This document shows positions 2,669-20,895 of a stretch of DNA of 64,000 nt, one piece after another. How positions within the stretch are numbered: position 1 is the stretch's first letter; every line of letters starts with the position of its first letter. Origin of the DNA: Robiginitalea aurantiaca (GTDB lineage Bacteria > Bacteroidota > Bacteroidia > Flavobacteriales > Flavobacteriaceae); NCBI RefSeq assembly GCF_030380815.1, contig NZ_JAUDUY010000001.1:372001-436000 (forward strand), given 5' to 3'. A model generated the notes under the pieces. It was not told where the DNA came from. It ran no database searches and worked only from the letters and a program-made list of their open reading frames with translations. A program made the position numbers and the translations under genes.

Positions 2669-3754
2669 TTAGGTGGTGCTTGCAAAATGATAATACGCGG
2701 CACAGGCGCCCTCTGAAGAAACCATAGGGGCTCCGAGGGGGTTGCGGGGAGTACATTTTTTTCCAAAATGAGGACACTCATGTGGTTTCTTTTGTCCGGT
2801 CAGTATAGCCCCTGCCATACATTCCCCATTTTCCGTATCCCCTTTTTCTTCCAGTTGGAATCTTTCCGCCGCGTCATAACCCCGGTATTGGGGTCGAAGA
2901 ACATAGCCGCTATTGGGAATGGAGCCGATTCCCCTCCATTGACGGTCCCCGATTTCAAACACCTGATGAATCACTTTTTGAGCCGCCAGGTTTCCAGCTT
3001 CGGTTACGGCCCGCTTATATTGGTTTTCAACACGATATTCTCCTTTTTCGAGCTGGAGCACGGCTTTGTAAATGCCCTCCGCAAGATCCAGGGGTTCAAA
3101 ACCGGTGATTACAATCGGAATCTTGTATTTCGCAGCTATCGGGTGGTACTGCGAATAGCCCATAATGGCACAGACATGACCTGCGCCCAGAAAGCCGTCG
3201 ATGGCACAAAAAGGATCACCGAGAATTCCCTCCATGGCTGGTGGAACCAGTACATGGGACACCAGAATGGAATAGTTGGAAAGGCCCTCTTTTTCAGCCT
3301 GAAGCACGGAGAGCGCATTTGCAGGGGCCGTAGTTTCAAATCCAACGGCAAAGAATACGACTTCCCGCTCCGGATTTTCACGCGCAATCCGGACAGCTTC
3401 GAGGGGAGAATAAAGGATTCTCAGGTCCCCCCCTTTGGATTTGGCTTCCTGCAGGCTCAAACCGCTTCCGGGCACGCGCACCATATCGCCAAAGGAACAT
3501 AAAATAACCCCCCTTTCCATAAGGGTCACTGCCAGGTCTATTAATTCCATGGGCGTAACGCAGACCGGACAACCCGGACCGTGAATCATCTGAATCCCTT
3601 CAGGTAGTAAATCGAGCAATCCGTTACGTACAAGGCTATGTGTTTGGCCTCCGCAAATTTCCATGATGTTCCAGGGTCGTGTGACCGCTTTCTGTATTTG
3701 CTCCAATACCTTCTGGGTGGCCTCGAGATTCCGGTATTCCGTTAGATATTTCAT
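2669..3754 (-). CDS. hypD: hydrogenase maturation protein HypD
   Basis: A 361-residue [4Fe-4S] scaffold on which, with HypC, the Fe(CN)2CO unit is assembled. Visible family motifs are MEICGGQTH (near residue 32), GPGCPVCVTP (about 79-88), a central GAGHVCAIMG, and a cysteine-rich C-terminus (CPHFGKKCTPRNPLGAPMV, then GACAAYY) that holds the cluster. Length is normal. The start overlaps the hypF stop by 4 bases, so translation is coupled. Confidence 0.95.
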   Translation of the reverse strand: MKYLTEYRNLEATQKVLEQIQKAVTRPWNIMEICGGQTHSLVRNGLLDLLPEGIQMIHGPGCPVCVTPMELIDLAVTLMERGVILCSFGDMVRVPGSGLSLQEAKSKGGDLRILYSPLEAVRIARENPEREVVFFAVGFETTAPANALSVLQAEKEGLSNYSILVSHVLVPPAMEGILGDPFCAIDGFLGAGHVCAIMGYSQYHPIAAKYKIPIVITGFEPLDLAEGIYKAVLQLEKGEYRVENQYKRAVTEAGNLAAQKVIHQVFEIGDRQWRGIGSIPNSGYVLRPQYRGYDAAERFQLEEKGDTENGECMAGAILTGQKKPHECPHFGKKCTPRNPLGAPMVSSEGACAAYYHFASTT

Positions 3755-6015
3755 GAATGACAGTGTAAGTGGTACATCAGTTGCCCAAAGGGGATATTTT
3801 CATCATTAGGGCTTAGTTCACGATGGAAATAGAGTTCAAAAGTGCCGGGGTTCAGATGCCGGATCAGATGCACCAGAAGGGCATTTTGAAAAACCCCGCC
3901 ACTAAAAGCGATTTTGGCAACAGACTCCAGTTCTGCCTTCTCTAAGATAAGCTTTGCCAGCGTGAAAATAAAATCCCCGGCAACCTGACAGGTGTCCCCG
4001 CTTATCTCCAGTTGGGATTTTATTTCCCGGATCAGTTTTCTGACGGGGATATTCCCCTGGGCGTCCAGTGAAACAAGGGAATTAGCCCTCTCCATATCAT
4101 AGCCGGATGAGGCTGCCTCCAGCAACATGGCTGCTTCCCCTTCAAAGGTATTCAGGTCACAAATACCGAGCAGTGCGGATACTCCGTCAAATAACCTTCC
4201 CATTGAGGAGGTTTTCAGGGTGTTCGCAGGCTTTATTTGGGTATAGAGTTTCCACGCCTGTGGGCTAAATCTATCCTTTATGGAGCCCTCATCTCCATCG
4301 AGTAATGAAAACAGGGAGAGTTGTGGGTTTCTGGACATGGCATCACCAGCAAGCCAGTCAAAATATTCAAGTTGCCCAACACGGCTGATGCTCCCTTTGG
4401 CATACCTGAAAAACTCTCCGCCCCAAATCTGTCCGTCTTCACCATATCCTGTTCCATCCCAAACGACACCCAGTATGGGCTCGGGGGAGGAGAAAAGGTC
4501 ATTTTCACCCAAAACAGCTGAAAAATGGGCTTTATGGTGTTGGATTTGGTGGCAGGGGATCCCCAGTTCTGCCGACAAATCCTTCCCGTACTGTGTGCTG
4601 AGATAATCCGGATGGGAATCGGTAAGCAGGGCAGTGGGTTGTTTGTCAAAAAGGCTGATGAACCCGGAAACCATTTTAGTAAATCGCTCATAAACATCAT
4701 AATTTTCGAGGTTCCCCAGGTATTCGCTGATGTAGATAAAATCATTCGGAATAAACCCAATACTGCTTTTAAGTTGCGCTCCCAGGGCCATTAAACCGGT
4801 GGCTCGATCACTTTGGACAGGCTTGCTGAAGTTGGGTGCGAGTCCCCTTGCCCTTCTCAGGAGAATGGGGATCGTTCCTCCTGAGGCGAATCGCATAACA
4901 GAGTCGTCCTGTGGATGAATGATTTCAAGGTTGTGTTCGAAAAAATAATCTGCGGTCCCGGCTAGTTTTTTCCGCGCGTCCGATTCGGTAAAACAGATGG
5001 GTGCTCCGTGAATATTGCCGCTGGTCGCGATCAGGGGTTTGCGAAAGGCCCGGGACAAGAGGGAGAGGATACCGGTATAGGGCAACATCACACCCAATTG
5101 GTTTAGTCCGGGTGCAATTTCAGACAGGCGGGCATTTCCGTGGTAGTGGGTTGTGGGGAGCAGGACAATTGGGCGTTCGGGGGACTGAAGTGCCTGTCGT
5201 TCCGCATCACCAATAGGGAGGGCATCCTCCAAATGTTCCAGAGAAGGGTACAGGACCGCGAAAGGTTTCTTTGGCCGTTGCTTTTTGGCCCTTAATGCTT
5301 TAATGCTTCCAGCCGAAGTCGCATCGCAGCACAAAAGGTATCCGGAGGTGTTTTTCAGGGCAATGATCTTCCCCACAGATAGAAGCCTGGCGAGTTGTTG
5401 AAATACAGATTCATCTGTCAGAGGAATTTCAAGGCCCTGGGCGTCTGCAATCCAATAGGAAATGCCACAGGTGTGGCAACTGTTGGTCTGAGAATGAAAG
5501 CGGCGGTCGGTGGGATTCGAATATTCTTCCGTACACTGAGTACACATCGGGAAAAACTGCATGCTGGTATGCTCCCGTTCAAAGGGAAAAGTTCTGGTCA
5601 GCGCCCATCTCGGACCGCAGTTCGTACAGCTGATAAAGGGATATCCAAACCGCCTGTTTTCTGGGTTTATGAGGTCCTGAAAGCAGTCCGGGCACAGCGC
5701 AAAATCCGGGGTGAGTTGTAGGTTGAGCTGCCTGTTTTTTGACGAAGCATCAATGCTAAAGTCGGCTGCGGCTTCAAAAGGAATTTCATCAAAACTACAG
5801 TTAACGACACGGGATATGGGTGGGGCATGCAGGGTAATTCTTCGGTAAAAAGTTTCGAGTTTTTTCCGGTCTCCTGAAACCACTACTTCCACACCTGCTT
5901 CATTGTTGGATACCCTGCCGACCAGCCCAAGGGTAATGGCTTCACGATATACAAAGGGTCGGAATCCGACCCCCTGTACCCGCCCCTGGATTCGTATTCT
6001 AAAGGTGGTCTCCAA
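3751..6015 (-). CDS. hypF: carbamoyltransferase HypF
   Basis: A 754-residue multidomain enzyme that converts carbamoyl phosphate and ATP to carbamoyl-adenylate and transfers the carbamoyl to HypE. In order it shows an N-terminal acylphosphatase domain (about 1-90, GRVQGVGFRPFVYR), two zinc-finger segments (CPDC/CTNC and CTQC/CHTC, about 105-185), a YrdC-like domain (about 200-390) and a Kae1-like C-terminal domain (IQHHKAH, WDGTGYGEDG, SGGVFQN). All domains look intact. It overlaps the maturation protease gene by 17 bases. Confidence 0.95.
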   Translation of the reverse strand: METTFRIRIQGRVQGVGFRPFVYREAITLGLVGRVSNNEAGVEVVVSGDRKKLETFYRRITLHAPPISRVVNCSFDEIPFEAAADFSIDASSKNRQLNLQLTPDFALCPDCFQDLINPENRRFGYPFISCTNCGPRWALTRTFPFEREHTSMQFFPMCTQCTEEYSNPTDRRFHSQTNSCHTCGISYWIADAQGLEIPLTDESVFQQLARLLSVGKIIALKNTSGYLLCCDATSAGSIKALRAKKQRPKKPFAVLYPSLEHLEDALPIGDAERQALQSPERPIVLLPTTHYHGNARLSEIAPGLNQLGVMLPYTGILSLLSRAFRKPLIATSGNIHGAPICFTESDARKKLAGTADYFFEHNLEIIHPQDDSVMRFASGGTIPILLRRARGLAPNFSKPVQSDRATGLMALGAQLKSSIGFIPNDFIYISEYLGNLENYDVYERFTKMVSGFISLFDKQPTALLTDSHPDYLSTQYGKDLSAELGIPCHQIQHHKAHFSAVLGENDLFSSPEPILGVVWDGTGYGEDGQIWGGEFFRYAKGSISRVGQLEYFDWLAGDAMSRNPQLSLFSLLDGDEGSIKDRFSPQAWKLYTQIKPANTLKTSSMGRLFDGVSALLGICDLNTFEGEAAMLLEAASSGYDMERANSLVSLDAQGNIPVRKLIREIKSQLEISGDTCQVAGDFIFTLAKLILEKAELESVAKIAFSGGVFQNALLVHLIRHLNPGTFELYFHRELSPNDENIPFGQLMYHLHCHS

Positions 6016-6550
6016 CTGAAATCGCTTGTTTATGAAGCGTTTGTGCCAGGCTCAGGGTTTTGTCAATGGCTTCCGGAAGTGCATTCAGGACCTCAGGGGA
6101 AACCGCAACACTCATCGGATTTATATGGTCTATAGAGATTGTAATGAGATACAAATCAGGTTGATGGTCCATGAGATAAACGGCTTCGATCATGTCTTTA
6201 AGGCCTACATCATGAACACTTAGTGCTTTTGGGAAGTCAGAAGCAAATTTTGGTCGAAGCAAACTAACAGTTCCCGCCGGTTTTCCATCCATGGTGGCAT
6301 CTACAAAAATGACTGTGCCATAGGCCTGAAAGCGATCGAGTAACAGGAACCCCCCCGTTCCTCCGTCGAGGAGATCGAGGTATTCAGGGATGGGGCGCTG
6401 AGAAAGTGATTCAATAAGGCGCACCCCAATACTTTCATCCCCCATGAGATAATTGCCTACCCCGAGGACCAGGATGCTTCCTGATTTGTCTTTCTCAAAG
6501 TAAAAACTGTCACTGCTGATACCTTGGGGGGTTTCTGATGTATTTTTCAT
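5999..6550 (-). CDS. hyaD: hydrogenase large-subunit maturation endopeptidase
   Basis: A 183-residue HyaD/HybD-type aspartic-like protease that removes the C-terminal peptide of the large subunit after nickel insertion. The motif VLGVGNYLMGDESIGVR places E39. With D84 (FVDA) and H113 (SVHDVG) it matches the nickel-sensing residues known in HybD (E16, D62, H93) at similar spacing. I prefer the ATG at 6550: an upstream start at 6631 would overlap the cytochrome b gene by 56 bases and add an unconserved basic stretch. It lies between the cytochrome b gene and hypF. Confidence 0.9.
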   Translation of the reverse strand: MKNTSETPQGISSDSFYFEKDKSGSILVLGVGNYLMGDESIGVRLIESLSQRPIPEYLDLLDGGTGGFLLLDRFQAYGTVIFVDATMDGKPAGTVSLLRPKFASDFPKALSVHDVGLKDMIEAVYLMDHQPDLYLITISIDHINPMSVAVSPEVLNALPEAIDKTLSLAQTLHKQAISVGDHL

Positions 6551-6575
6551 AAGGAATTCAACGCTTAGTTTAGGT

Positions 6576-7340
6576 TCAGGAGGATGGGCTCGTTTCTGCC
6601 GGGGTGCTTTCCATTTCCTCTGAGTTTTCATTCAGGTCTTCAATATCTTCCGTGGTCAGACGATCCTCCTGCACAAATTTATAGCCTCCGAACATTGAGG
6701 ATACTTCCCCCCGGCCTTCCAGCCAGTCGTGATAAAAGACGAGGTACACGTGTATCAAAGTGAATAAAATAAAGAACCAGGTGGCCACATGGTGTATGGT
6801 ACGAACCATAAAATCCCCACCGAAAAGAGGCACTACCCAACTGAATAAGTCTGGCAACCACCACCCGGAATTATCGGCGTACAGGCCGAAACCTGTAATT
6901 ACCTGAACAACGGCCACGATAAATAAGGCCACATAGGAGAGGGCGGCCACGGAGTTATGACCCACACTGATATTACGGACATCGTTTGTTTTATCGTGCA
7001 TCAGGAGGATATCTATTTTCAGGACGTGCAGGATATTCTTGCGCATCTTTCTGCTGAAAGGCAAAAAGGCTTTCCAGTTGGCAAAGCGATTCCCGACAAA
7101 AGCCCAGTAAATACGCAGGAGCATATTAAAAAAGAAGATATAGGCTGTGGCAAAGTGAATAAAACGCACGGTCCCAAACCAATAAGACTCACTCGCCTCT
7201 GCTCCCGAAAGTATGGCAGGAGGATCTGCAATAATAAACCCTGTGGTTGCCAGGACAGTTATGCAAAGCACATTGATCCAGTGGAAAATCCTCACCGGAA
7301 GTTCCCAGACATAGACGCGTTTATAATTCTTGGATCGCAT
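6576..7340 (-). CDS. hyaC: Ni/Fe-hydrogenase b-type cytochrome subunit
   Basis: A 254-residue HyaC/HupC-family di-haem cytochrome b that anchors the hydrogenase to the membrane and passes electrons to quinone. Motifs include PVRIFHWINV (H20), RFIHFATAY, and the paired histidines in RTIHHVATWFF followed by HVYLVFYHDWLEGRGEVSSM, which is characteristic of the family. Four transmembrane helices are expected. The C-terminal tail of about 30 residues is acidic (EDIEDLNENSEE). It follows the large subunit by 12 bases. The presence of this subunit fits a respiratory uptake enzyme. Confidence 0.93.
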   Translation of the reverse strand: MRSKNYKRVYVWELPVRIFHWINVLCITVLATTGFIIADPPAILSGAEASESYWFGTVRFIHFATAYIFFFNMLLRIYWAFVGNRFANWKAFLPFSRKMRKNILHVLKIDILLMHDKTNDVRNISVGHNSVAALSYVALFIVAVVQVITGFGLYADNSGWWLPDLFSWVVPLFGGDFMVRTIHHVATWFFILFTLIHVYLVFYHDWLEGRGEVSSMFGGYKFVQEDRLTTEDIEDLNENSEEMESTPAETSPSS

Positions 7341-7352
7341 GGGATTCAGTTT

Positions 7353-9086
7353 TTAAATGTCACAGCTCGATATATTTTGCACCTGGGAAAGGTGTTTTCC
7401 ATGTTCGTCGTACAAATGCACGGCACAGGCGATACAGGGGTCAAAAGAGTGAATGGTCCGAATGATTTCCAATGGGAGTTCCGGATCGGCGACCGGAGTA
7501 TCCAGTAAGGTGGATTCATATGCGGAACGCTGACCTTTGGGGTCTCGGGGAGAAGCGTTCCAGGTAGAGGGAACCACCAACTGGTAATTCGCCGTTTTTC
7601 CATCTTCTATTCGAATCCAGTGCGCAAGGGCACCTCTGGGCGCTTCAGAGAACCCAACCCCTTTGGCGGAAGCCGGCCATGAAGTGGGCTCCCACAATTC
7701 GGTATTGGCCATCCTGGAATCGCCGTTTTTAATATTGTTGAGCAGGGTCGCATAGAAATCCTGAGTCCACTGGGCTACCAAACGGGTTTCCAAGCCTCTG
7801 GCTGCTGTCCGGCCCAGGGTTGAGAATAGGGCGTCTACAGGCACATCCAATTGTTTCAGTGCCCCATTTACCAATTCCTGAATCTCACTGTTTCCACGGG
7901 CATAGCCCACAAGAAGCCTGGCCAGGGGTCCGACTTCCATAGGCTTTCCTTTCCATCGGGGTGTCTTAATAAAACTGTACTTCTGGCTGACGTCCAGGGA
8001 TTCATAGGGCGGTTTCGGACCGCTGTAGTTGATATTGGTTTCCCCATCCCAGGGATGTCTTCCTGTTTCTGCGCCTTCGGCATAGGGATCGTACCACGAA
8101 TTGTTTACAAACTCTTCGATGTCGTCATTGCGATGGTCCACTTCGTGTACTTTGGAAAGGTCCCGGTCCAGGATGATTCCCGGAGGGAATTTAAAGTTTG
8201 AAACATCCGCATAGCCGTTCGTCGGAAAATCTCCATAGGCCATATAGTTTCCGAAGCCTCTTCCGATGCTCCCCCAATCCTTATAAAAAGAAGCGATAGC
8301 CATTAAATCCGGGAGATAGACCTGTTCCACAAATTCCTGACCTTCTTTAATCAGGCGCCCTACATAGGCCAGGCGTTCTGCATTCAGACCTCCGGGACTA
8401 TCTTCATTGATCGCACAAGCCATACCCCCGACAAGGTAGTTGGGGTGTGGGTTCTTACCGCCGAAGATCGTATGCACTTTTACAATTTCCTTTTGCCATT
8501 CAAGCGCTTCCAGATAATGTGCAACAGCAAGCAGGTTAACTTCAGGAGGCAGTTTCATCTGGGGGTGTCCCCAATACCCATTGGCGAAGATTCCCAACTG
8601 ACCACTTTCGACAAATCGTGTGATGCGCTTTTTAATGTCGGAGAAATACCCGGGAGAACTTTTTGGCCAGCTCGATATACTCTGTGCCAGCGTGGAGGTA
8701 GCTGCGGGGTCTGCTTTCAGGGCATTGACCACGTCAACCCAGTCCAGGGCGTGCAGGTGATAGAAGTGCACTACATGGTCGTGCATGTAGAGGGTGCCCT
8801 CCATAATATTGCGAACCATCTCCGCGTTTGGCGGAATATTAATTCCCAGGGCGTCTTCTACGGACCGGACCGACGCCAGGGCGTGAACCGTGGTACAAAC
8901 CCCACAGGCTCTTTGCACAAAAGCCCAGACATCTCTCGGATCTCTCCCTTTGACGATGGTCTCCAGGCCGCGAACCATTGGACTCGAACTGTAGGCGTCT
9001 GTTATTTTACCGTCTTTCACCTCAACCTCGATTCGCAAATGTCCTTCGATACGGGTGATGGGGTCTACAACTATTCTATTTGCCAT
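7353..9086 (-). CDS. hyaB: [NiFe] hydrogenase large subunit, group 1
   Basis: The 577-residue catalytic subunit. The nickel-binding L1 motif RACGVCTTVH gives C61 and C64, and the C-terminal motif DPCIACAVH gives C551, C554 and H557. It starts with the usual RIVVDPITRIEGH. The maturation protease should cut after H557 and release a 20-residue tail, about five residues longer than in E. coli HyaB. It is exported with the small subunit (hitchhiker Tat export), so it has no signal of its own. It is the second gene of the leftward operon. The call of H2-uptake, membrane-bound group 1 follows from the cytochrome b and Tat-bearing small subunit. Confidence 0.97.
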   Translation of the reverse strand: MANRIVVDPITRIEGHLRIEVEVKDGKITDAYSSSPMVRGLETIVKGRDPRDVWAFVQRACGVCTTVHALASVRSVEDALGINIPPNAEMVRNIMEGTLYMHDHVVHFYHLHALDWVDVVNALKADPAATSTLAQSISSWPKSSPGYFSDIKKRITRFVESGQLGIFANGYWGHPQMKLPPEVNLLAVAHYLEALEWQKEIVKVHTIFGGKNPHPNYLVGGMACAINEDSPGGLNAERLAYVGRLIKEGQEFVEQVYLPDLMAIASFYKDWGSIGRGFGNYMAYGDFPTNGYADVSNFKFPPGIILDRDLSKVHEVDHRNDDIEEFVNNSWYDPYAEGAETGRHPWDGETNINYSGPKPPYESLDVSQKYSFIKTPRWKGKPMEVGPLARLLVGYARGNSEIQELVNGALKQLDVPVDALFSTLGRTAARGLETRLVAQWTQDFYATLLNNIKNGDSRMANTELWEPTSWPASAKGVGFSEAPRGALAHWIRIEDGKTANYQLVVPSTWNASPRDPKGQRSAYESTLLDTPVADPELPLEIIRTIHSFDPCIACAVHLYDEHGKHLSQVQNISSCDI

Positions 9087-9107: not shown

Positions 9108-10232
9108 CTATGATTCAAATTTTTTCTCATTTGCCTTGCCACGCCTGATGCGATCTGAAAGCTCTTTTCGCTTGGTGACATTTGCGGCAATGGCGTGTGC
9201 AGCCAGACCACCGGCCAGTACTCCTGCAGCCACTTTGCCAATGGTATCTGCAGAACTTTCTATGCCAAAGCCGGCCAGCCCTGTAAGGCGTTCGTAAAAG
9301 GGGCCATTGTCCCAGAAATCCTCTTCACTGCATCCAATACAACCATGTCCGGACTGTATCGGGAAACTCACCCCGTTATTCCAGCGGATGGTACCACAGG
9401 AATTATACGTCATGGGTCCCCGGCATCCTACTTTATAAAGGCAGTACCCTTCTTTGGCATTCTGGTCGTCAAAGGATTCGGCAAACAGACCCGCATCGTA
9501 ATACGGCCGCCTGTAGCAGGAATCGTGGACCCGCTTGGCATAAAAGGCCTTGGGACGTCCGATATTATCGAGTTCGGGTAAGCGATCAAAGGTGATCAGG
9601 TGGACGATAATCCCGGCCATGACCTCACCGATAGGCGGGCACCCCGGAACCTTGATAATTGGCTTGTCTTTAATAATCTTGTGTATGGGGGTCGCTTTTG
9701 TCGGATTCGGGTAGGCGGCCTGAACGCATCCATTACAGGCACAACTACCCCAGGCGATAATCGCCTTGGCTCCTTCAGCGGCTTCTATCAGAATGTCCTT
9801 AGCAGATCGACCTGCGATACAACAGTAATTCCCATCATCCCCAAGGGGCACGGAACCTTCCACACAAAGGATGTATTCCCCTTTGTGTTTTTCCATGGTG
9901 GCGTGTTTTGCCGCTTCCGCCTGATGCCCGGAGGCCGCCATAAGGGTGAGTGTATAATCCAGCGAGATTTTATCCAGAATGATATCCGAAACAATCGGGT
10001 GGTCGGAACGGATAAAGGATTCGCTGCAACAAGTACATTCCTGGAAATGTTCCCAGATGACGGGAATTCGGAATGTCGTTTCTAAAGACTTGGCCACCTG
10101 GCCAATCATTGTTGTTTCAAGCCCCATGTACGCGGCGATATAGGTCGCGAATTTCATGAAGTCCCTTCGGCTATACCCCTGTTTTATGATGCTGTCATAA
10201 TAGGTTTCCTGAGTGTTTCTTTCAAAAGCCAT
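9108..10232 (-). CDS. hyaA: [NiFe] hydrogenase small subunit, oxygen-tolerant type
   Basis: The 374-residue iron-sulfur subunit. A Tat signal (SRRDFMKFA, residues 21-29) directs export; a weakly hydrophobic segment near 329-349 followed by basic residues is the membrane anchor. The proximal cluster motif is ECTCC (C66, C68, C69), with C164, C169 and C198: the six-cysteine set that defines the 4Fe-3S cluster of oxygen-tolerant group 1d enzymes such as E. coli Hyd-1. An extra C166 lies inside SCACNGC. Medial and distal cluster residues ([27 protein letters not shown]) are present. It is the first gene of the leftward operon. Confidence 0.96.
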
Positions 10233-10379: not shown

Positions 10380-10721
10380 ATGCACGAGTTATCCATTGCG
10401 ATGGGGATCGTTAAGATCGCTGAGTCCGAGACCAGGAAGGCCGGGGCCACAAAGGTGGAGCGTATAGAACTCGAGATCGGTACCCTGGCGGGCATAGAAT
10501 TTGGGGCCCTTGACTTTGTTTGGCCGGTAGCTGTAAGGGATACAGTGCTCGAACGTGCAGAAAGACAGGTTGATGTGATTCGGGGCCAGGCGCGCTGTAT
10601 GGATTGCGATACACTTTTTGAAGTTGCTAAATATTACGATTCCTGCCCCAATTGCAGGAGTAACTTAAAAGCTATTCTGAAAGGAAAGGAATTAAGGGTA
10701 AAAGCCCTTGAAGTAGTTTAA
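10380..10721 (+). CDS. hypA: hydrogenase nickel incorporation protein HypA
   Basis: A 113-residue nickel metallochaperone that works with HypB to load Ni into the large subunit. It starts with the invariant MHELSIA, where the His and Glu bind nickel. The zinc site is the pair CMDC and CPNC (about residues 73-76 and 87-90). The true start is the ATG at 10380; a longer frame from 10350 would bury the required N-terminal Met-His. It opens the rightward accessory operon, 22 bases before hypB. Confidence 0.96.
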   Translation: MHELSIAMGIVKIAESETRKAGATKVERIELEIGTLAGIEFGALDFVWPVAVRDTVLERAERQVDVIRGQARCMDCDTLFEVAKYYDSCPNCRSNLKAILKGKELRVKALEVV

Positions 10722-10743: not shown

Positions 10744-11661
10744 ATGTGCGGAACTTGCGGATGCGGCAGTGAAGAAGGAGGCGTCAGAATCCTCACGCCC
10801 GGTATGACAAATCATGGACATACACATTCTCATGATCATGATCATTCTCACGATCACGGCCATCACCATCACCATGACCACGATCATTCTCATGACCATG
10901 ATCATTCTCACGATCACGGGCATCACCATCACCATGACCACGATCATTCTCACGACCATGGCCATCACCACGATCAGGCAGGGATTACCCTGGCTCCAAA
11001 CAAGAAAATTCTGGAAGTAGAGCAGGATGTTTTACATCACAACCAGGTAATGGCTGCCCGTAACCGAGGCTATTTCGAAGCCTTGAATATTCTTCCGCTC
11101 AACCTGGTCAGTTCCCCGGGATCCGGCAAAACGTCTTTGCTGGAACGCACTTTGAAAGAGATGAAGGAGTCGCTGGATTTCTACGTAATTGAAGGAGATC
11201 AGCAAACGGTCAATGATGCAAACCGTATAGCTGCCCTGGATGTTCCGGTAATCCAGATCAATACGGGAAAAGGATGTCACCTGGAAAGTGATATGGTTTT
11301 CGAGGCTGTAAAACAGCTCCAGATGAAGCCAGATGGGGTGTTGATGATCGAAAACGTCGGCAATCTTGTATGTCCCTCAATGTTTGACCTGGGCGAAAAG
11401 AAAAGGGTTGTGATTATAAGCACAACGGAAGGGGAGGACAAACCCCTGAAATATCCGGACATGTTCCATACCTCAGACATATGCATTATCAACAAAATTG
11501 ACCTGCTTCCCTACCTCACATTCGATGTGGGGAAAGTCAAAGACTACGCCCTACAGGTAAATCCAAACCTGAAGTTTTTTGAAGTCTCGGCTACGACAGG
11601 CGAAGGAATGAATGCCTGGTACGACTGGCTCAGAACCCAGGTAAAGCCGAAAAAATCGTAA
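10744..11661 (+). CDS. hypB: hydrogenase nickel incorporation GTPase HypB, His-rich
   Basis: A 305-residue SIMIBI GTPase. The N-terminus MCGTCGCG carries the high-affinity nickel CxxCGC motif. Residues 24-77 are almost only His, Asp, Ser and Gly and probably store nickel. The GTPase domain shows the P-loop SSPGSGKT (123-130), the metal-site GKGCHLESDM, the ENVGNLVCP switch and NKIDLLPY. Length is normal for His-rich HypB. It is followed by hypC after 4 bases. The His tract is encoded by a 60-base tandem repeat. Confidence 0.97.
   Translation: MCGTCGCGSEEGGVRILTPGMTNHGHTHSHDHDHSHDHGHHHHHDHDHSHDHDHSHDHGHHHHHDHDHSHDHGHHHDQAGITLAPNKKILEVEQDVLHHNQVMAARNRGYFEALNILPLNLVSSPGSGKTSLLERTLKEMKESLDFYVIEGDQQTVNDANRIAALDVPVIQINTGKGCHLESDMVFEAVKQLQMKPDGVLMIENVGNLVCPSMFDLGEKKRVVIISTTEGEDKPLKYPDMFHTSDICIINKIDLLPYLTFDVGKVKDYALQVNPNLKFFEVSATTGEGMNAWYDWLRTQVKPKKS
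10825..10960 (+). repeat. 60-bp tandem repeat encoding the HypB histidine tract
   Basis: The bases from about 10825 to 10960 repeat with an exact period of 60 with only a few mismatches (for example 10861-10892 equals 10921-10952). Each unit encodes one round of the His/Asp-rich sequence. The near-identity at DNA level points to recent unit duplication; copy number is likely variable between strains. Confidence 0.8.
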
Positions 11662-11665
11662 ACAG

Positions 11666-11929
11666 ATGTGTCTTTCAATCCCCGGAAAACTTATTGAAAT
11701 CACACAGACCCTTGATGAAACCTTCCGTTTGGGGAAAGTTTCTTTTGACGGGGTGGTAAAAGAAGTAAACCTCACCCTGGTTCCACAGGCTGAAACAGGG
11801 GATTATGTTATGGTGCATGTAGGGGCTGCAATTGCGGTGGTCAATGAAGAAGAGGCGGTGAAAACCTTCGAGGTATTGCGACAGCTGGGGGAGCTCGATG
11901 AGCTGGACCCCGGGGATTCCTCAACATAA
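11666..11929 (+). CDS. hypC: hydrogenase assembly chaperone HypC
   Basis: An 87-residue HypC/HybG chaperone. It begins MCLSIPGKL, where Cys2 binds the Fe(CN)2CO unit, and shows the small beta-barrel motif GDYVMVHVGAAIAVVNEEEA. It partners HypD during cluster assembly and then the large-subunit precursor. It is encoded 4 bases after hypB and 11 bases before the Aat-like gene, so those genes very likely share a transcript. Confidence 0.96.
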   Translation: MCLSIPGKLIEITQTLDETFRLGKVSFDGVVKEVNLTLVPQAETGDYVMVHVGAAIAVVNEEEAVKTFEVLRQLGELDELDPGDSST

Positions 11930-11940
11930 CTCAACTTCCG

Positions 11941-12621
11941 ATGCCCTATTTTGAACTTAAAAAAGGTGAAACCGGTTTTCCCCCTGCTCATTTTGCAGAT
12001 CTGGACGGGCTTCTAGCGGTAGGAGGGGATATGAATGCAGCCCAGTTACTGAGCGGTTATCAAAGCGGCGTCTTTTACTGGCATCACCCCATGAAGCATA
12101 TCAGATGGTGGTCTCCCGATCCGCGACTTGTCCTTGAAACGGATCAAGCCCCGGAATGGGTCAAGGAGGGGAATACAATGTTTTCAACTACGGTAAACAC
12201 GAATTTTGAGGCTTTGCTCCGACTTTGTCAGAAGCGTTATAATGACAAAGATGCCATGGGACCTTCCTGGTTGTCGGAACGCATGTTTCGTATTTTCATG
12301 GAATTGTCCGAAAAGGAACTCATCCATGCCCAGGAGGTATGGCTGAACAGAACACTGGTTGGAGGTTTTTTCGGTGTTTGTCTGGGCCATCTCTGTTTTG
12401 GGGAGTACGCCCTGGGCGAGGTTCCCGGAGCGGCAGCTTTTGCCATATCGCAAGCTGTCCCGAAATTACGGGAGAAGGGAATTAAACTAATCGATATGCA
12501 GAAGGAAACCTCCAGGGATGATTCCCTGGAATACCATGAAATCTCACGTTTGGCCTATGTCGATTTCTGCAGGCAGGCCGGCGAGCGCTATAATAAGTCG
12601 GAAAAAATGGACTGTTTATGA
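11941..12621 (+). CDS. divergent leucyl/phenylalanyl-tRNA-protein transferase (Aat) homologue
   Basis: A 226-residue protein of the Aat family (GNAT-like fold), which normally adds Leu or Phe to N-terminal Lys/Arg to create N-degrons. Conserved elements are DLDGLLAVGGD (20-30), IRWWSPDPR (54-62), SWLSERM, LVGGFFGV (139-146), FGE (153-155) and LIDMQ with D185 and Q187, which match the catalytic pair of E. coli Aat (D186, Q188). However, the family FGESMFS and NASK segment is replaced by FGEYALGEVPGA, HL-SLGA by DDSLEY, and the usual SVE by AQE. So the chemistry may be retained while the substrate or tRNA contacts have changed. It lies 11 bases after hypC and overlaps the TPR gene by 4 bases. 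A link to hydrogenase assembly is inferred only from position. Confidence 0.8.
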   Translation: MPYFELKKGETGFPPAHFADLDGLLAVGGDMNAAQLLSGYQSGVFYWHHPMKHIRWWSPDPRLVLETDQAPEWVKEGNTMFSTTVNTNFEALLRLCQKRYNDKDAMGPSWLSERMFRIFMELSEKELIHAQEVWLNRTLVGGFFGVCLGHLCFGEYALGEVPGAAAFAISQAVPKLREKGIKLIDMQKETSRDDSLEYHEISRLAYVDFCRQAGERYNKSEKMDCL

Positions 12622-14369
12622 GCAACTTTGATGATACCCTACGGCGGGCAGAAGGGCTATTGCAATCCAACAGGCCTGAAGAGGCACTCCCGTATTTTGA
12701 AGTTGCTCTGGAAACTGCGACCAGCGAGGTTGTGGAGCTGCAACTTCGAAATACCATTGCGAGAATAAAGGAGTTAACCGGGGCGCGAGGAGAGGCGACT
12801 TCCGGATTCTTGCAACTTCTTGAAATGGCCAACGCTCCGGAACCGGATATCCAGGAACAACGAGCCCTTGCCCTGAATAATCTCGGCAGGCTGGCCCTGC
12901 CACAAAATCCCGATGGGGCCATCGAGTATTTCGACCAGTCGATTGAGATTTACAAAATTCGCGCAGGAGTTAACGGACATTTTTACACCCATCTTGCCCA
13001 TTCCTACATGGCAAGAGGGGAGGCGTATTATCTGAAAAAGAAATACTGGTTTTCTAAAAAGGACTACAAGGCAGCCCTGGAGTTGCATCGGGAGAACGCT
13101 GACGTATTGGGTACGGATATGGTGGCCCTGGCACATTATCAACTCGGGGCAATTTACATGGATGAATTCAATGCATACGATGCCCAAACAAATTACAGGA
13201 AAGCCCTGGATCTCTATCTTGAGGGGGTGACTGCAAATCCGTCGAAATACCGCCCATTGGTGGCTGCCTGTCTGAACAACCTCGCAGTCTCCAATATCCA
13301 GCTCGAGGAATATGAAAAGGCACTGGGGCATTATAAAAATGTTCTTGAAGAATATCAATGGCTCAGCCAGGAGAAGCCCGATGTTTTTTTACCCTATTTA
13401 GCCGCTACCTATGCCAGCCTTGGAATCGTATATTCAGACAAGATGAACAAGCCTTCTGAAGCTTTGCTCATGGGTCAGAAAGCCAAATCCCTCTACGAAA
13501 ATTTGTCTGAACAAAGTCCTGGCAAGTACTTGCATTACCTGGCTACGGCATACCACAACTCGGGAATTTATGCCCTGGAAACCGAACAGTGGAAACACGC
13601 CTCTTCAGATTTGATAAGAGCACTTGAGTTGCGGAAACGGTTAATTGACGAGGAGCCTGAAGCCTTCGGAGCAGATTATTGTGTAACCGCTTTAAACCTC
13701 CTTGAGCTGTTTCAGCGCAAGCTGGAGGTTGACAAAGACCTCCAGTATCGCGAAAGGGGATTGGAATTGCTGGCAGATTTAAAAGTGGCGCTAAAAGTGC
13801 TCCCGGAGACCCCTTCGGTTGTCAATATGAAGAACGATTTCAAGTTCTTTCAAACATACTTCAATGGAGTCGATGCCGAAGGGATTCAAACCCTCGATAC
13901 GATGGAAAAAATTCGCCTGTGGGATCAGGAGATCGACAGTACACTGGACCTGAATGAAAAGGCTGGGTATCAGGAGAAGATATTGAAAACCCTGGAGGAC
14001 TTTCAGCAAACTTTTCCCCAAAACAGGGCGCTTCGAAAACCTTTTGTGCTGGCTCTGAACAATATGGCGTGGCTTGAGCTTTGTATAGGAGGGACGGAAA
14101 TGGCGCGAAAACTACTTGTCCGGGCCAGGGCGGAGGATATGGAACTCCCTGCTTTACGCTGTAATGAGGCTCATTGTGATTTATTGGATGGGAAGGTCCG
14201 ATTGGCGATAGAAAAGTACGAGAGTTTAGCGGGTGAGAAGAATGAATCAAATGCTGATCTGCGCGGAGTAATTCAGGAGGATATCAAAAAACTGGAAGCT
14301 TGTAACCTGCTTGAAGATCATATTCTTGAGGAATTGAAAATTGCCGGGATCCTCAAGCCTCATTCCTGA
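12618..14369 (+). CDS. tetratricopeptide-repeat protein linked to the hyp operon
   Basis: A 583-residue cytoplasmic protein without signal peptide or membrane span. It is built of helical TPR-like repeats. Clear ones include LNNLGRLALPQNPDGAIEYF (about 74-93), AHYQLGAIYMDEFNAYDAQ (about 173-191), LNNLAVSNIQLEEYEKALGH (about 219-238) and YHNSGIYALETEQWKHASS (about 312-330); a last helical block with LNNMAWLELCIGG lies near 478. TPRs hold partner proteins, so it could be a scaffold or chaperone. Its start overlaps the stop of the Aat-like gene (ATGA), implying coupled translation and a joint role. The exact function is unknown. Confidence 0.85.
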   Translation: MSNFDDTLRRAEGLLQSNRPEEALPYFEVALETATSEVVELQLRNTIARIKELTGARGEATSGFLQLLEMANAPEPDIQEQRALALNNLGRLALPQNPDGAIEYFDQSIEIYKIRAGVNGHFYTHLAHSYMARGEAYYLKKKYWFSKKDYKAALELHRENADVLGTDMVALAHYQLGAIYMDEFNAYDAQTNYRKALDLYLEGVTANPSKYRPLVAACLNNLAVSNIQLEEYEKALGHYKNVLEEYQWLSQEKPDVFLPYLAATYASLGIVYSDKMNKPSEALLMGQKAKSLYENLSEQSPGKYLHYLATAYHNSGIYALETEQWKHASSDLIRALELRKRLIDEEPEAFGADYCVTALNLLELFQRKLEVDKDLQYRERGLELLADLKVALKVLPETPSVVNMKNDFKFFQTYFNGVDAEGIQTLDTMEKIRLWDQEIDSTLDLNEKAGYQEKILKTLEDFQQTFPQNRALRKPFVLALNNMAWLELCIGGTEMARKLLVRARAEDMELPALRCNEAHCDLLDGKVRLAIEKYESLAGEKNESNADLRGVIQEDIKKLEACNLLEDHILEELKIAGILKPHS

Positions 14370-14436
14370 AAACAGCTTCTTATTCGATTGGAATAATGGT
14401 GAGGCAAAAAAGCATGGGGAAACGCTGTTTTACAGT

Positions 14437-14465
14437 TTGATTTGTAACGGAGCTTTGTATCTTTA
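14437..14465 (+). promoter_or_regulatory. promoter of the RidA-like gene
   Basis: TTG (14437-14439) and TATCTTTA (14458-14465) are 18 nt apart, one mismatch from the Bacteroidota consensus, 22 bases before the ATG. This suggests the RidA-like gene is transcribed separately from the hyp operon. Confidence 0.55.
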
Positions 14466-14487
14466 AGAGCAATAAAATCAAAATCTT

Positions 14488-15051
14488 ATGAATACTCGAT
14501 TAACCCCCCTCCTTGGAATAGCGCTATTCACGGTACTGATTTCCATGGGGAGCTCACCGTTATGGGCCCAGGATACGCCTGAAGCTTCATACAATCCGGA
14601 AGCCAAACTCAAGGATATCGGAATCGAACTTCCCAAAGCTTCGAACCCGGTAGCCAATTACGTCAATGCAGTACGCGTTGGGAATCTCATTTTTCTTGCG
14701 GGAAAAGGACCCAAAAAAACCGATGGTACGTACATCACCGGGAAAGTAGGGGCAGACCTGACCGTGGAGCAGGGGTACGAGGCCGCACGTATCGCAGGTA
14801 TCAACCAGTTGGCCGTTTTGAAGGCTGAACTCGGGAACCTGAACAAAGTAAAGCGGCTGGTTAAAGTGTTGGGAATGGTAAATGCAACCCCTGATTTCGG
14901 GAATCAGCCTGAGGTCGTAAATGGATTTTCTGACCTTATGGTTGAAGTCTTCGGCGAGCGGGGGAAACACGCCCGGGCAGCTGTGGGAATGGGTTCCCTG
15001 CCCAGGGGAATTGCTGTGGAAGTGGAGATGATTGTGGAGGTTTATGACTAG
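14488..15051 (+). CDS. exported RidA/YjgF-family protein
   Basis: A 187-residue protein with an N-terminal signal peptide (hydrophobic residues 8-24, cleavage after about LWAQ) followed by a full RidA-like domain: VGNLIFLAGKGPK, a central EQGYEAARIAGINQLAVLK and the C-terminal HARAAVGMGSLPRGIAVEVEMI. RidA enzymes hydrolyse reactive enamine/imine intermediates and are usually cytosolic. The export signal makes this one unusual, so a different substrate or a binding role is possible. It has its own promoter and a strong terminator. Confidence 0.85.
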   Translation: MNTRLTPLLGIALFTVLISMGSSPLWAQDTPEASYNPEAKLKDIGIELPKASNPVANYVNAVRVGNLIFLAGKGPKKTDGTYITGKVGADLTVEQGYEAARIAGINQLAVLKAELGNLNKVKRLVKVLGMVNATPDFGNQPEVVNGFSDLMVEVFGERGKHARAAVGMGSLPRGIAVEVEMIVEVYD

Positions 15052-17227: not shown

Positions 17228-17521
17228 ATGATTTCATTTGCATTTGTAAACCAGTTTTGTCCTGGTTTATGGCTGAGCATAATGAAAGGTGTTTTTATGT
17301 TTGGGTTACGGGGACTAAAGGAGTCATGTCCCGTAGCGGCCTTTGAAAATGGCGACCAAAATTTAGAGCTAACTCCTGGTCACTTACATCTAAAGGAATT
17401 CCGATTCAGGAACTACTTTGGACAACTATCCGCTTTTTTATCTGTGATTCTAGAACCTCTGACTCCTGAGGTAAGAAGTTTCATTGATCCCACTTTGCGC
17501 AAATTAAAACTGGAAGAATGA
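17228..17521 (+). CDS. small ORF translationally coupled to arginine decarboxylase
   Basis: A 97-residue reading frame whose TGA overlaps the ATG of the arginine decarboxylase gene (ATGA, 17518-17521). The C-terminal half (LHLKEFRFRNYFGQLSAF, then SFIDPTLRKLKLEE) looks protein-like, whereas the N-terminus is less convincing; a start at 17297 (MFGLRG) is possible. I do not recognise a family. It may be a real small protein or a leader ORF controlling decarboxylase translation. Confidence 0.45.
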   Translation: MISFAFVNQFCPGLWLSIMKGVFMFGLRGLKESCPVAAFENGDQNLELTPGHLHLKEFRFRNYFGQLSAFLSVILEPLTPEVRSFIDPTLRKLKLEE

Positions 17522-18987
17522 ACGTCAAATTCAAGGACCTGATTGAACAGACCTTTGAATTTCCTACAGAGGAGTTCTCCCTGGAAAATTCAAACCTCTT
17601 GTTCCACGGACTCAACCTGAGCGATCTGGTTGCGCAATATGGAAGTCCGTTGAAATTCACCTATTTACCGAAGATCTCCGAAAATATTGGCCGGGCCAAA
17701 AAATGGTTTGACTCAGCTATTGAGAAATATGGGTATAAAGGAAAATACTATTATTGCTATTGTACGAAGAGCTCGCATTTTCGATACGTGTTGGAAGAAG
17801 CTCTTAAGAATGACATCCATATTGAAACCTCATCGGCCTTCGATATTAAGATTGTGGAGCGGCTCAAGCGCGATGGCTTGATAGATGCGGACACCTACGT
17901 TATTTGCAATGGATTTAAGAGGGATGCCTATATTGAGAATATCGCAAACCTGATTAATGGCGGACAGCGGAATTGCATTCCCATCCTCGACAATTATGAA
18001 GAGATCGGTTTATTGACCAGCCGTGTTAAGGATCGGTTTCAGGTTGGAATTCGAATTGCTTCGGAGGAGGAGCCCAAATTTGAATTTTATACCTCTCGTT
18101 TAGGTATTGGTTATAAAGACATCGTCCCTTTTTACGATAAACACCTCAACGACAATCCAAATGTGGAGTTGAAAATGCTTCACTTTTTCATCAATACCGG
18201 AATCCGGGATACAGCCTATTACTGGAATGAACTGCTTAAGTGCCTGAAGGTATATGTCCGTTTAAAAAAGCATTGTCCCAGCCTGGACAGCTTGAATATC
18301 GGTGGGGGATTTCCAACAAAGAATTCCCTCTCTTTTGAGTACGATTACCAGTATATGGTAGATGAAATAATCAATCAGATCAACCTGGCATGTGAGGAAG
18401 CTGAGGTTGATGTCCCAAATATTTTTACAGAATTCGGGAGTTTCACTGTTGGAGAGAGCGGAGGAGCCATTTATCAGGTTCTGTATCAGAAACAACAGAA
18501 CGATCGTGAGAAATGGAACATGATCGACTCTTCTTTTATCACCACGCTGCCTGATTCCTGGGCTATCAACCGACGCTTCATCATGCTACCTGTCAACAGG
18601 TGGAACGATACCTACGAACGGGTGCTATTAGGGGGGCTTACCTGCGATAGCGATGATTATTACAACAGCCAACAGGATTTGAATGCCATCTACCTGCCGA
18701 AATTCAATCCTGCACAACCTCTTTATATTGCCTTTTTCAATACGGGTGCGTATCAGGAAACCATAGGGGGCTATGGAGGCCTTCAACACTGCCTGATCCC
18801 GTATCCCAAGCACTTGCTTATTGATAAAGACGCGGACGGGCGGTTTCACGTATCCCTTTTCAGAGACCAGCAAAGTGCAGCGGAAAACCTTGAAATCCTC
18901 GGATACGCAGCTGATAATGACACCGCGGAACACGCAGTTTATAGTGCTGAAGAATCGATTCACTCAAACAAACCCATACTAAAATGA
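17518..18987 (+). CDS. speA: arginine decarboxylase (PLP fold III)
   Basis: A 489-residue alanine-racemase-fold decarboxylase converting arginine to agmatine. The PLP lysine lies in YYCYCTKSSH (K84); the glycine-rich phosphate loop is LNIGGGFPTK (about 261-270); a GGLTCDSDD motif near 376 supplies the active-site Cys-Asp pair. It corresponds to the shorter Bacteroidota-type enzyme rather than the 630-residue E. coli SpeA. The next gene, agmatinase, overlaps by 4 bases, confirming agmatine as the product. A residual chance remains that it decarboxylates another basic amino acid. Confidence 0.88.
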   Translation: MNVKFKDLIEQTFEFPTEEFSLENSNLLFHGLNLSDLVAQYGSPLKFTYLPKISENIGRAKKWFDSAIEKYGYKGKYYYCYCTKSSHFRYVLEEALKNDIHIETSSAFDIKIVERLKRDGLIDADTYVICNGFKRDAYIENIANLINGGQRNCIPILDNYEEIGLLTSRVKDRFQVGIRIASEEEPKFEFYTSRLGIGYKDIVPFYDKHLNDNPNVELKMLHFFINTGIRDTAYYWNELLKCLKVYVRLKKHCPSLDSLNIGGGFPTKNSLSFEYDYQYMVDEIINQINLACEEAEVDVPNIFTEFGSFTVGESGGAIYQVLYQKQQNDREKWNMIDSSFITTLPDSWAINRRFIMLPVNRWNDTYERVLLGGLTCDSDDYYNSQQDLNAIYLPKFNPAQPLYIAFFNTGAYQETIGGYGGLQHCLIPYPKHLLIDKDADGRFHVSLFRDQQSAAENLEILGYAADNDTAEHAVYSAEESIHSNKPILK

Positions 18988-19931
18988 GAAGTAAAGCAAC
19001 TTTCGCGGGAATCCCTGTGGAGTTTGGTCAGTTAGAAACTGCTCAGGTAGTACTGATACCCGTTCCTTTTGACGGTACATCTACCTGGGGTAAAGGTTCA
19101 GATAAAGGTCCGGAGGCCTTTTTAGAAGCCGCTGAAAACATGGAACTTTACGATATTGAAACCGACACGGAAGTATACAAACAGGGGATACACCTCGTGG
19201 AAGCCATTTCTGGGGAGGAGGACCCTGAAGTTCTCGTCAATCGGGTTCACAAGACGGTAAAGGACTATATTAAACGGAATCACTTTGTGACCCTTTTAGG
19301 AGGTGAACACTCGGTCTCCATTGGGGCGATTCGCGCCTTTAACGAGTGTTATGATAACCTGACCGTCCTCCACATCGATGCGCATGCTGATTTGAGAAAA
19401 ACCTATATGGGTAGTGCTTATAACCATGCTTGTGCCATGCACGAGGCCTCTCAATCCACCAACCTGATTCAGGTAGGTATCCGAAGTATGGATGCCATAG
19501 AGAAAACCTACATGGATCCCGAAAAGACATTTTTTGCCCATGAATTGGCTTTGGATGAATTCTGGATGGATAAGGTGGTGGATCTTTTAACCGATCAGGT
19601 TTACATCACATTCGACCTCGATGCGCTTGATCCTTCAATTATGCCCTCAACAGGAACCCCTGAACCCGGAGGACTTCTGTGGTACGAAACGCTGGAGTTT
19701 CTTAGCAAGGTTTTTAATGAGAAGAACGTCGTAGGGTTTGACATGGTAGAACTCTGCCCGAACCCAGCCGACAAGTCCCCGGACTTCCTTGCGGCCAAAC
19801 TTTTCTACAAAATGTTGAGCTATAAATATCGGGAACAGGAATCAAAACTGGATTTTGATGATGAATCCCTGGACGACTTCGAAGACCAAAACAGAAACTT
19901 CACTTCAAAATTTGAAGACGATGCCTACTGA
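18984..19931 (+). CDS. speB: agmatinase (ureohydrolase family)
   Basis: A 315-residue binuclear Mn ureohydrolase that splits agmatine to putrescine and urea. Metal ligands are seen in GGEHS (H109), HIDAHADLR (D132, H134, D136) and TFDLDALDPS. An acidic C-terminal tail of about 30 residues (DFDDESLDDFEDQN) is unusual. The gene overlaps speA by 4 bases at its start and the deoxyhypusine-synthase-like gene by 11 bases at its end. Confidence 0.93.
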   Translation: MRSKATFAGIPVEFGQLETAQVVLIPVPFDGTSTWGKGSDKGPEAFLEAAENMELYDIETDTEVYKQGIHLVEAISGEEDPEVLVNRVHKTVKDYIKRNHFVTLLGGEHSVSIGAIRAFNECYDNLTVLHIDAHADLRKTYMGSAYNHACAMHEASQSTNLIQVGIRSMDAIEKTYMDPEKTFFAHELALDEFWMDKVVDLLTDQVYITFDLDALDPSIMPSTGTPEPGGLLWYETLEFLSKVFNEKNVVGFDMVELCPNPADKSPDFLAAKLFYKMLSYKYREQESKLDFDDESLDDFEDQNRNFTSKFEDDAY

Positions 19932-20895
19932 AGCTCCCGTATCCGAATTTATAACCCGATATTTTAAACATTTCAATGCGGCTGCCCTTCTCGATGCAGC
20001 GAGGGGTTACGAGCTTCAGTTGAACAAGGGATCCCGTATGCTTGTAAGTATGGCAGGGGCCATGAGCACAGCCGAATTGGGAAAGATTTTTTCAGAAATG
20101 ATCCGTCAGGACAAAGTGCATATCATTTCATGTACCGGGGCAAATCTGGAAGAGGATGTCATGAACCTGGTGGCACATTCGCACTATAAGCGATTGCCGA
20201 ACTACAGAGAATTGAGTCCGGAACAAGAGTGGCAGTTACTCGAAAATGGATTAAACCGGGTTACGGATACTTGTATTCCGGAGGAGGAGGCTTTTCGACG
20301 GCTTCAGAAACATATTTTTGAAATTTGGAAAGAAGCAGACCAGGCTGGTGAGCGTTATTTCCCGCACGAATTTCTCTACAAGTTACTGCTTTCAGGTGTT
20401 TTGGAACCGTATTATGAGATCGACCTCAAAGACTCCTGGATGTATGCCGCGGCAGAAAAAAACCTACCCCTTGTATGCCCGGGGTGGGAAGACAGTACCC
20501 TGGGAAATATCTTTGCCTCTTATGTCATTAAAGGGGAACTATCGCCCCAAACCATGCGTTCGGGCATCGAATACATGACCTATCTCGCAGAATGGTATAT
20601 GGCAAATTCAAAAAACGGCATTGGGTTTTTTCAAATTGGCGGGGGGATTGCGGGGGATTTCCCTATCTGCGTAGTGCCCATGCTCTACCAGGATCTGGAA
20701 CAGGAAGATACCCCTTTCTGGAGTTATTTCTGTCAAATCAGTGATAGCACAACCAGTTATGGTTCCTACTCGGGGGCTGTTCCCAATGAAAAGATTACGT
20801 GGGGGAAACTCGGGATAGATACCCCTAAATTTATCATAGAAAGCGATGCAACTATTGTTGCTCCTCTGATTTTTGCTTATCTTTTGAAGATGTGA
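19921..20895 (+). CDS. deoxyhypusine synthase-like protein
   Basis: A 324-residue member of the deoxyhypusine synthase family, NAD-dependent aminobutyl transferases. The N-terminal MAGAMSTAELG motif, FFQIGGGIAGDFPIC and the C-terminal TWGKLGID, whose K296 corresponds to the reaction lysine of eukaryotic DHS, are present. Bacteria lack eIF5A, so the acceptor should be a small amine such as putrescine or agmatine; homospermidine synthesis is a reasonable guess given the adjacent putrescine-forming genes. The start is the ATG at 19921, overlapping agmatinase; the frame runs upstream only by chance. Confidence 0.88.
   Translation: MPTEAPVSEFITRYFKHFNAAALLDAARGYELQLNKGSRMLVSMAGAMSTAELGKIFSEMIRQDKVHIISCTGANLEEDVMNLVAHSHYKRLPNYRELSPEQEWQLLENGLNRVTDTCIPEEEAFRRLQKHIFEIWKEADQAGERYFPHEFLYKLLLSGVLEPYYEIDLKDSWMYAAAEKNLPLVCPGWEDSTLGNIFASYVIKGELSPQTMRSGIEYMTYLAEWYMANSKNGIGFFQIGGGIAGDFPICVVPMLYQDLEQEDTPFWSYFCQISDSTTSYGSYSGAVPNEKITWGKLGIDTPKFIIESDATIVAPLIFAYLLKM

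Follow-up and report, generated by a model that had tools for sequence, protein, structure and literature searches.

Two adjacent genes in the hyp cluster of Robiginitalea aurantiaca, the first encoding AatL, a divergent paralogue of leucyl/phenylalanyl-tRNA-protein transferase (Aat), and the second a TPR protein, suggest a so far undescribed pair of proteins that helps to make or control one hydrogen-consuming enzyme. That the pair is linked to the hydrogenase is very likely. AatL itself is best read as a neofunctionalised Aat paralogue that is probably no longer dependent on aminoacyl-tRNA. Aat is a housekeeping N-degron enzyme, and a search of open-licence papers turned up none that describes one of its homologues within a hydrogenase operon. 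The window is the whole stretch of DNA analysed (64,000 nucleotides), and coordinates without a contig name refer to it.

Gene order in the hyp cluster

On the forward strand, hypA (10380..10721; TIGR00100, 90.1 bits against a cut-off of 88.1), hypB (10744..11661; TIGR00073, 276 bits) and hypC (11666..11929; PF01455, 80.8 bits, and TIGR00074) are followed, after a gap of 11 bases, by the AatL ORF (11941..12621, 226 residues), which in turn overlaps by 4 bases the ORF of the TPR protein (12618..14369, forward strand, 583 residues; TPR_12, 81 bits, and no other domain). The open reading frames and the Pfam and NCBIfam profiles thus bear out a sequence-only reading of this DNA, in which hypA-hypB-hypC continued, with gaps of 11 and -4 bases, into an Aat-family protein and a 583-residue TPR protein. 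The reverse strand carries the genes for the hydrogenase small subunit (HyaA-like, 9108..10232; TIGR00391, 492.6 bits), the [NiFe]-hydrogenase large subunit (HyaB-like, 7353..9086; NF007550, 702 bits), a b-type cytochrome subunit (HyaC-like, 6576..7340; TIGR02125, 171.7 bits) and the maturation protease (HyaD-like, 5999..6631; TIGR00072, 105 bits, and PF01750). These four proteins and HypA, HypB and HypC were identified by Pfam and NCBIfam profiles; hypF (3751-6015), hypD (2669-3754) and hypE (1631-2656, with the HypE C-terminus PRIC), also on the reverse strand, were read directly as ORFs, and their order is kept in related loci.

Three other features of the region were recorded. The His-rich N-terminal region of HypB includes about 50-60 residues of repeated, His- and Asp-rich sequence of a nickel-storing type. 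Behind the TPR gene, in Robiginitalea loci only, lies a gene whose RidA/YjgF-family product seems to carry a signal peptide (14488-15051). Farther on, decarboxylase-like (Orn/Arg), arginase-family and deoxyhypusine-synthase-family genes stand in a row (17518-20895) and likely form a polyamine cluster.

Further AatL loci were read in Robiginitalea marina, R. sediminis, a Bacteroidetes MAG, a Muricauda sp., Robertkochia marina and others, and the AatLs there show 45-64% identity, except for one at 38% (locus L086). The order hypC-AatL-TPR is intact in every readable AatL locus, whether in Robiginitalea, Muricauda, Robertkochia or elsewhere. As far as the contigs reach, one strand carries hypE-hypD-hypF-hyaD-C-B-A and the opposite one hypA-hypB-hypC-AatL-TPR; contig ends cut some of the clusters, and two contigs (L033 and L201) end after AatL. 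The most divergent AatL, in L086 (genome G476, 12991-14917), is accompanied by a TPR protein cut at 416 residues, and this locus may be decaying.

Fold, residues and evolution of AatL

AatL has the Aat fold. All 14 members match PF03588 (114.6 bits for the window copy), and the AlphaFold2 model of the window protein (pLDDT 80.5) finds its best PDB match in the E. coli L/F-transferase 2dpt at a TM of 0.78, the range over 2dpt, 2dps and 2z3k being 0.75-0.78; the family assignment made from sequence therefore stands. The cut-off of the aat equivalog TIGR00667 (143.55 bits), on the other hand, is reached by none of the 14, the window copy scoring 88.1 and the best member 142.6. In a tree of Aat proteins the AatLs form one clade with support of 100/100 on a long branch (1.13 plus 0.45).

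Between the window and a second genome (G1020), identity is 67% for AatL, 66% for the TPR protein and 96% for the hydrogenase large subunit. AatL has a dN of 0.24 in this comparison, which is low against a dS of about 2.3, near saturation, and which therefore indicates purifying selection. With an open ORF in 14 of 14 loci, 42 invariant columns and this low dN, a decaying pseudogene was rejected as an explanation of the clade.

Residues were compared between the 14 AatLs and 71 canonical Aats, with E. coli numbering as the reference. In the E. coli enzyme, W49 stacks on the terminal adenosine, M144, F153, L170, F173 and I185 form the donor pocket, and E156 and Q188 anchor the acceptor side chain (PMC4964394). 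Glu155 and Asp185 of AatL (E. coli E156 and D186) do not vary in either set, while Q187 (E. coli Q188) is Gln in 12 of 14 AatLs and His in the other two. The window copy has E155, D185 and Q187, so that the retention of FGE, D185 and Q187 noted earlier holds for it, if not for every relative at Q187. W47 (E. coli W49) is kept, as is W110 (E. coli W111) in 13 of 14. Most replacements at the donor-pocket positions are hydrophobic; part of the clade has Cys for F153 and Ala for F173.

The losses are as consistent. The basic segment S-K/R-S-M-K/R (E. coli S75-R84), which we take to be a tRNA contact in the E. coli enzyme (residues 75-84), is absent from all 14 AatLs, and over the positions that match E. 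coli 69-88 the mean net charge is -1.1 in AatLs (n=14) as against +3.9 in canonical Aats (n=71). Nine residues conserved at 94-100% in canonical Aats (S157, M158, N164, S166, K167, C187, H193, L194 and G198) have been lost, S157 becoming Tyr in every AatL; F159, nearly fixed in canonical Aats, is lost as well. The alignment thus agrees with the earlier observation that the SMFS-NASK and HLxSLGA blocks are missing: SMFS, NASK, CQV and HLxSLGA are all replaced. Among the new invariants of AatL are M1-P2, F4-E5, H48, P50, K52, N101, R114, R117, Y156, K188 and C210, and these, together with the loss of the basic segment, go beyond what had been noted before. Set against the roles of the E. coli sites, the pattern indicates that AatL has kept its acceptor side and part of its donor side but has no basic segment left.

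It is on this evidence that a role close to the one proposed earlier has to be judged, in which AatL would still depend on aminoacyl-tRNA and, with a changed donor or acceptor specificity, extend a hydrogenase precursor or accessory protein by one amino acid at its N-terminus. The retained fold, the retained W47, W110 (13/14), E155, D185 and Q187 (12/14), the still mostly hydrophobic pocket and the nearest structures, which are L/F-transferases, some with bound puromycin and peptides, all speak for it. However, no AatL has the basic segment, S157, M158, F159, N164, S166, K167, H193, L194 and G198 are lost, and no member reaches the equivalog cut-off, and we consider this explanation unlikely.

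The TPR partner is modelled with confidence (pLDDT 92.9) as an all-helical superhelix in which tandem TPR repeats are confirmed, and among compact matches it resembles the peptide-binding superhelix of LGN/Pins (3sf4). Since the protein is acidic in all members, with a net charge of -0.6 to -29, it is no obvious substitute for a tRNA-binding surface, and this candidate role was not supported. Its fold suggests that it may bind peptides, and AatL and the TPR protein would pair physically.

Distribution with the hydrogenase

The large subunit of the window-type hydrogenase occurs in 31 of 397 family genomes. Profiles of AatL and the TPR protein were searched in 32 genomes, namely these 31 and one further genome (G037), and both proteins were found in 10 and neither in 22, genome kinship being only partly controlled in this count. 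AatL scored 331-377 bits and any other Aat at most 181. Across the 32 genomes the TPR protein occurs with AatL only, those without AatL showing just weak TPR matches. In 395 genomes of the phylum the AatL profile found no further member, the best other Aat scoring 187 bits, and a plasmid search gave, among the matches listed, ordinary aat only. Sampling was almost wholly within Bacteroidota.

Within the genus Robiginitalea, AatL is present in six of six species with the window-type hydrogenase and in none of four without it. On the genus tree the shortest count needs three changes, each involving hydrogenase and AatL together, and at least two of the three are forced by well supported branches. 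Three changes are likewise required for AatL on the operon tree, where one group with a single loss takes in most carriers and G476 stands outside. Canonical aat is retained in all 14 AatL genomes checked; in the source genome it lies on contig 33 (PF03588, 242 bits; TIGR00667, 201.8), which answers the question, raised with the sequence-only reading, of whether a separate aat exists, and AatL as an ordinary housekeeping gene placed here by chance was rejected on the same count. Because hydrogenase, AatL and TPR protein are gained or lost jointly within the genus, whereas canonical aat persists, the pair appears to serve the window-type hydrogenase. It is both encoded and co-inherited with that enzyme, which is the mark sought in an accessory factor.

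The association does not hold for the hydrogenase type as a whole. The 22 genomes without AatL and TPR protein carry the same hydrogenase, so the pair is not essential for maturation in general, and a general partnership with this enzyme was discarded. A suggested co-occurrence of this Aat subtype with the hydrogenase and the TPR protein was confirmed for the TPR protein (10 of 10 carriers) and, within the genus, for the hydrogenase. In AatL-minus clusters whose downstream side was read, no hydrogenase gene follows hypC. Seven AatL-minus loci (L087, L088, L089, L091, L096, L097 and L098) have a second hydrogenase large subunit of about 485 residues between hypA and hypB.

The pair might also be carried in the cluster for some other purpose, with no functional tie to the hydrogenase. 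The 22 hydrogenase genomes that manage without it and the lack of a co-varying client column are in keeping with this; however, AatL was never seen away from a hyp cluster in any of four overlapping genome sets (199 from the family, 32 selected, 10 from the genus and 395 from the phylum), and by the shortest count one genus shows three joint gains or losses of AatL and the hydrogenase, which makes such independence quite improbable. One genome, G037, has AatL-TPR on a 4.2 kb contig that breaks inside hypB, and no hydrogenase large subunit was found in it. This is the unclear case for the outcome that was to overturn the sequence-only reading, a genome lacking another aat together with relatives that have the same substitutions but lack hydrogenase genes; neither half was found.

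A single-contig Robiginitalea genome (G1015), presumably that of R. biformata, has a divergent PF00374 enzyme at C1:254723-256264 and no AatL. An early suspicion that the window hydrogenase belongs to group 1l, as for R. biformata, was dropped on account of this different large subunit and the missing AatL. A group 1l hydrogenase has been reported in R. biformata, with no substantial H2 uptake in culture (PMC10305171).

Proposed role and comparison with known systems

We tentatively favour, at a little below even confidence, the reading that AatL-TPR is a dedicated, dispensable and tRNA-independent accessory pair that acts on a peptide of the hydrogenase or of a Hyp component in part of the Flavobacteriaceae. 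The pair would aid the biogenesis of one [NiFe]-hydrogenase type in its assembly, folding or quality control. AatL would have kept the fold, the acceptor-side residues (E155 and mostly Q187) and D185 while losing the putative tRNA-docking surface and donor-site residues, so that it would no longer draw an amino acid from tRNA. Its old acceptor cleft would then bind one of the hydrogenase subunits or Hyp factors by the N-terminus or by an exposed peptide, and the TPR superhelix would hold the remainder of the extended client peptide. AatL could be either a holding factor or a transferase whose donor, at the remodelled site (H48, K52, R114, R117 and K188), is small and not a tRNA. It is possible, at somewhat below even odds, that this amounts to a new class of hydrogenase-biogenesis factor, in which a tRNA-independent Aat fold, helped by a TPR scaffold, would bind a hydrogenase component at its N-terminus or modify it there, with another donor or without any.

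Five points count against the accessory-pair reading. First, 22 genomes have the same hydrogenase but neither AatL nor the TPR protein. Second, the two proteins diverge far more rapidly than the hydrogenase does. Third, W49, W111 and some of the hydrophobic pocket for the donor persist, as would suit a kept aminoacyl donor. Fourth, G037 has AatL-TPR with no large subunit found. Fifth, setting the proteins of AatL-plus clusters against those of AatL-minus ones, residue by residue, brought out no client: no column in any Hyp protein tracks the presence of AatL, and the few discriminating HyaA and HyaB columns probably follow phylogeny. Of the earlier proposal that a repurposed peptidyl or aminoacyl transferase acts, with a TPR partner, on a hydrogenase precursor or accessory factor, what survives is an Aat paralogue that is tied to the hydrogenase cluster, goes with an obligate TPR partner and is additional to a canonical aat in the same genome. 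Its continued activity as such a transferase is not supported, given the loss of the basic segment, of several family-invariant residues and of an equivalog score, and no client on the hydrogenase side and no tracking Hyp column emerged.

AatL-TPR could alternatively be an N-degron-like factor of quality control or turnover that passes exposed N-termini of unassembled hydrogenase proteins to ClpS and a protease; it would then set the enzyme level rather than maturation. This matches the ancestral role of Aat and the dispensable, fast-evolving character of the pair, and ClpS, found in four of four AatL genomes tested, leaves room for it. However, ClpS also serves the housekeeping aat of the same genomes and is therefore no specific link to AatL; we regard the turnover role as distinctly unlikely.

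If the accessory-pair reading is true, the Aat fold can serve another use, as a paralogue without the basic segment that has a fixed partner and is tied to one hydrogenase, and aerobic hydrogen oxidation in marine Bacteroidota has an undescribed accessory module. The role is directly testable, because the pair is small, always found together and absent from close relatives.

Compared to known systems, AatL-TPR shares features with four. First, with Aat (PF03588, TIGR00667; E. coli 2cxa, 2dps, 2dpt and 2z3k), AatL shares the fold (TM 0.78), W49, W111 (13/14), WWSPDPR, E156, D186 and mostly Q188. In contrast to Aat, it is without the basic segment, has SMFS, NASK, CQV and HLxSLGA replaced and H48, K52, R114, R117, Y156, K188 and C210 newly invariant, scores under the equivalog cut-off, and is an extra copy beside canonical aat, encoded in the hyp cluster. 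Second, FemABX/GNAT transferases (FemX, VipF and others) have a distant fold likeness to AatL (TM about 0.4), with a weak PF13480 match in two of 14 members, whereas AatL is an Aat by sequence and by full-length fold. Third, the TPR partner is like the LGN/Pins TPR superhelix (3sf4; TM about 0.8 by target length), but has no sequence relation to it beyond the TPR repeats and is about 200 residues longer. Fourth, HypA-F and the HyaD-type protease share a gene cluster with AatL-TPR, which is gained or lost with the hydrogenase in one genus; unlike them, AatL-TPR has no homology to these factors and is missing from most clusters of the same hydrogenase.
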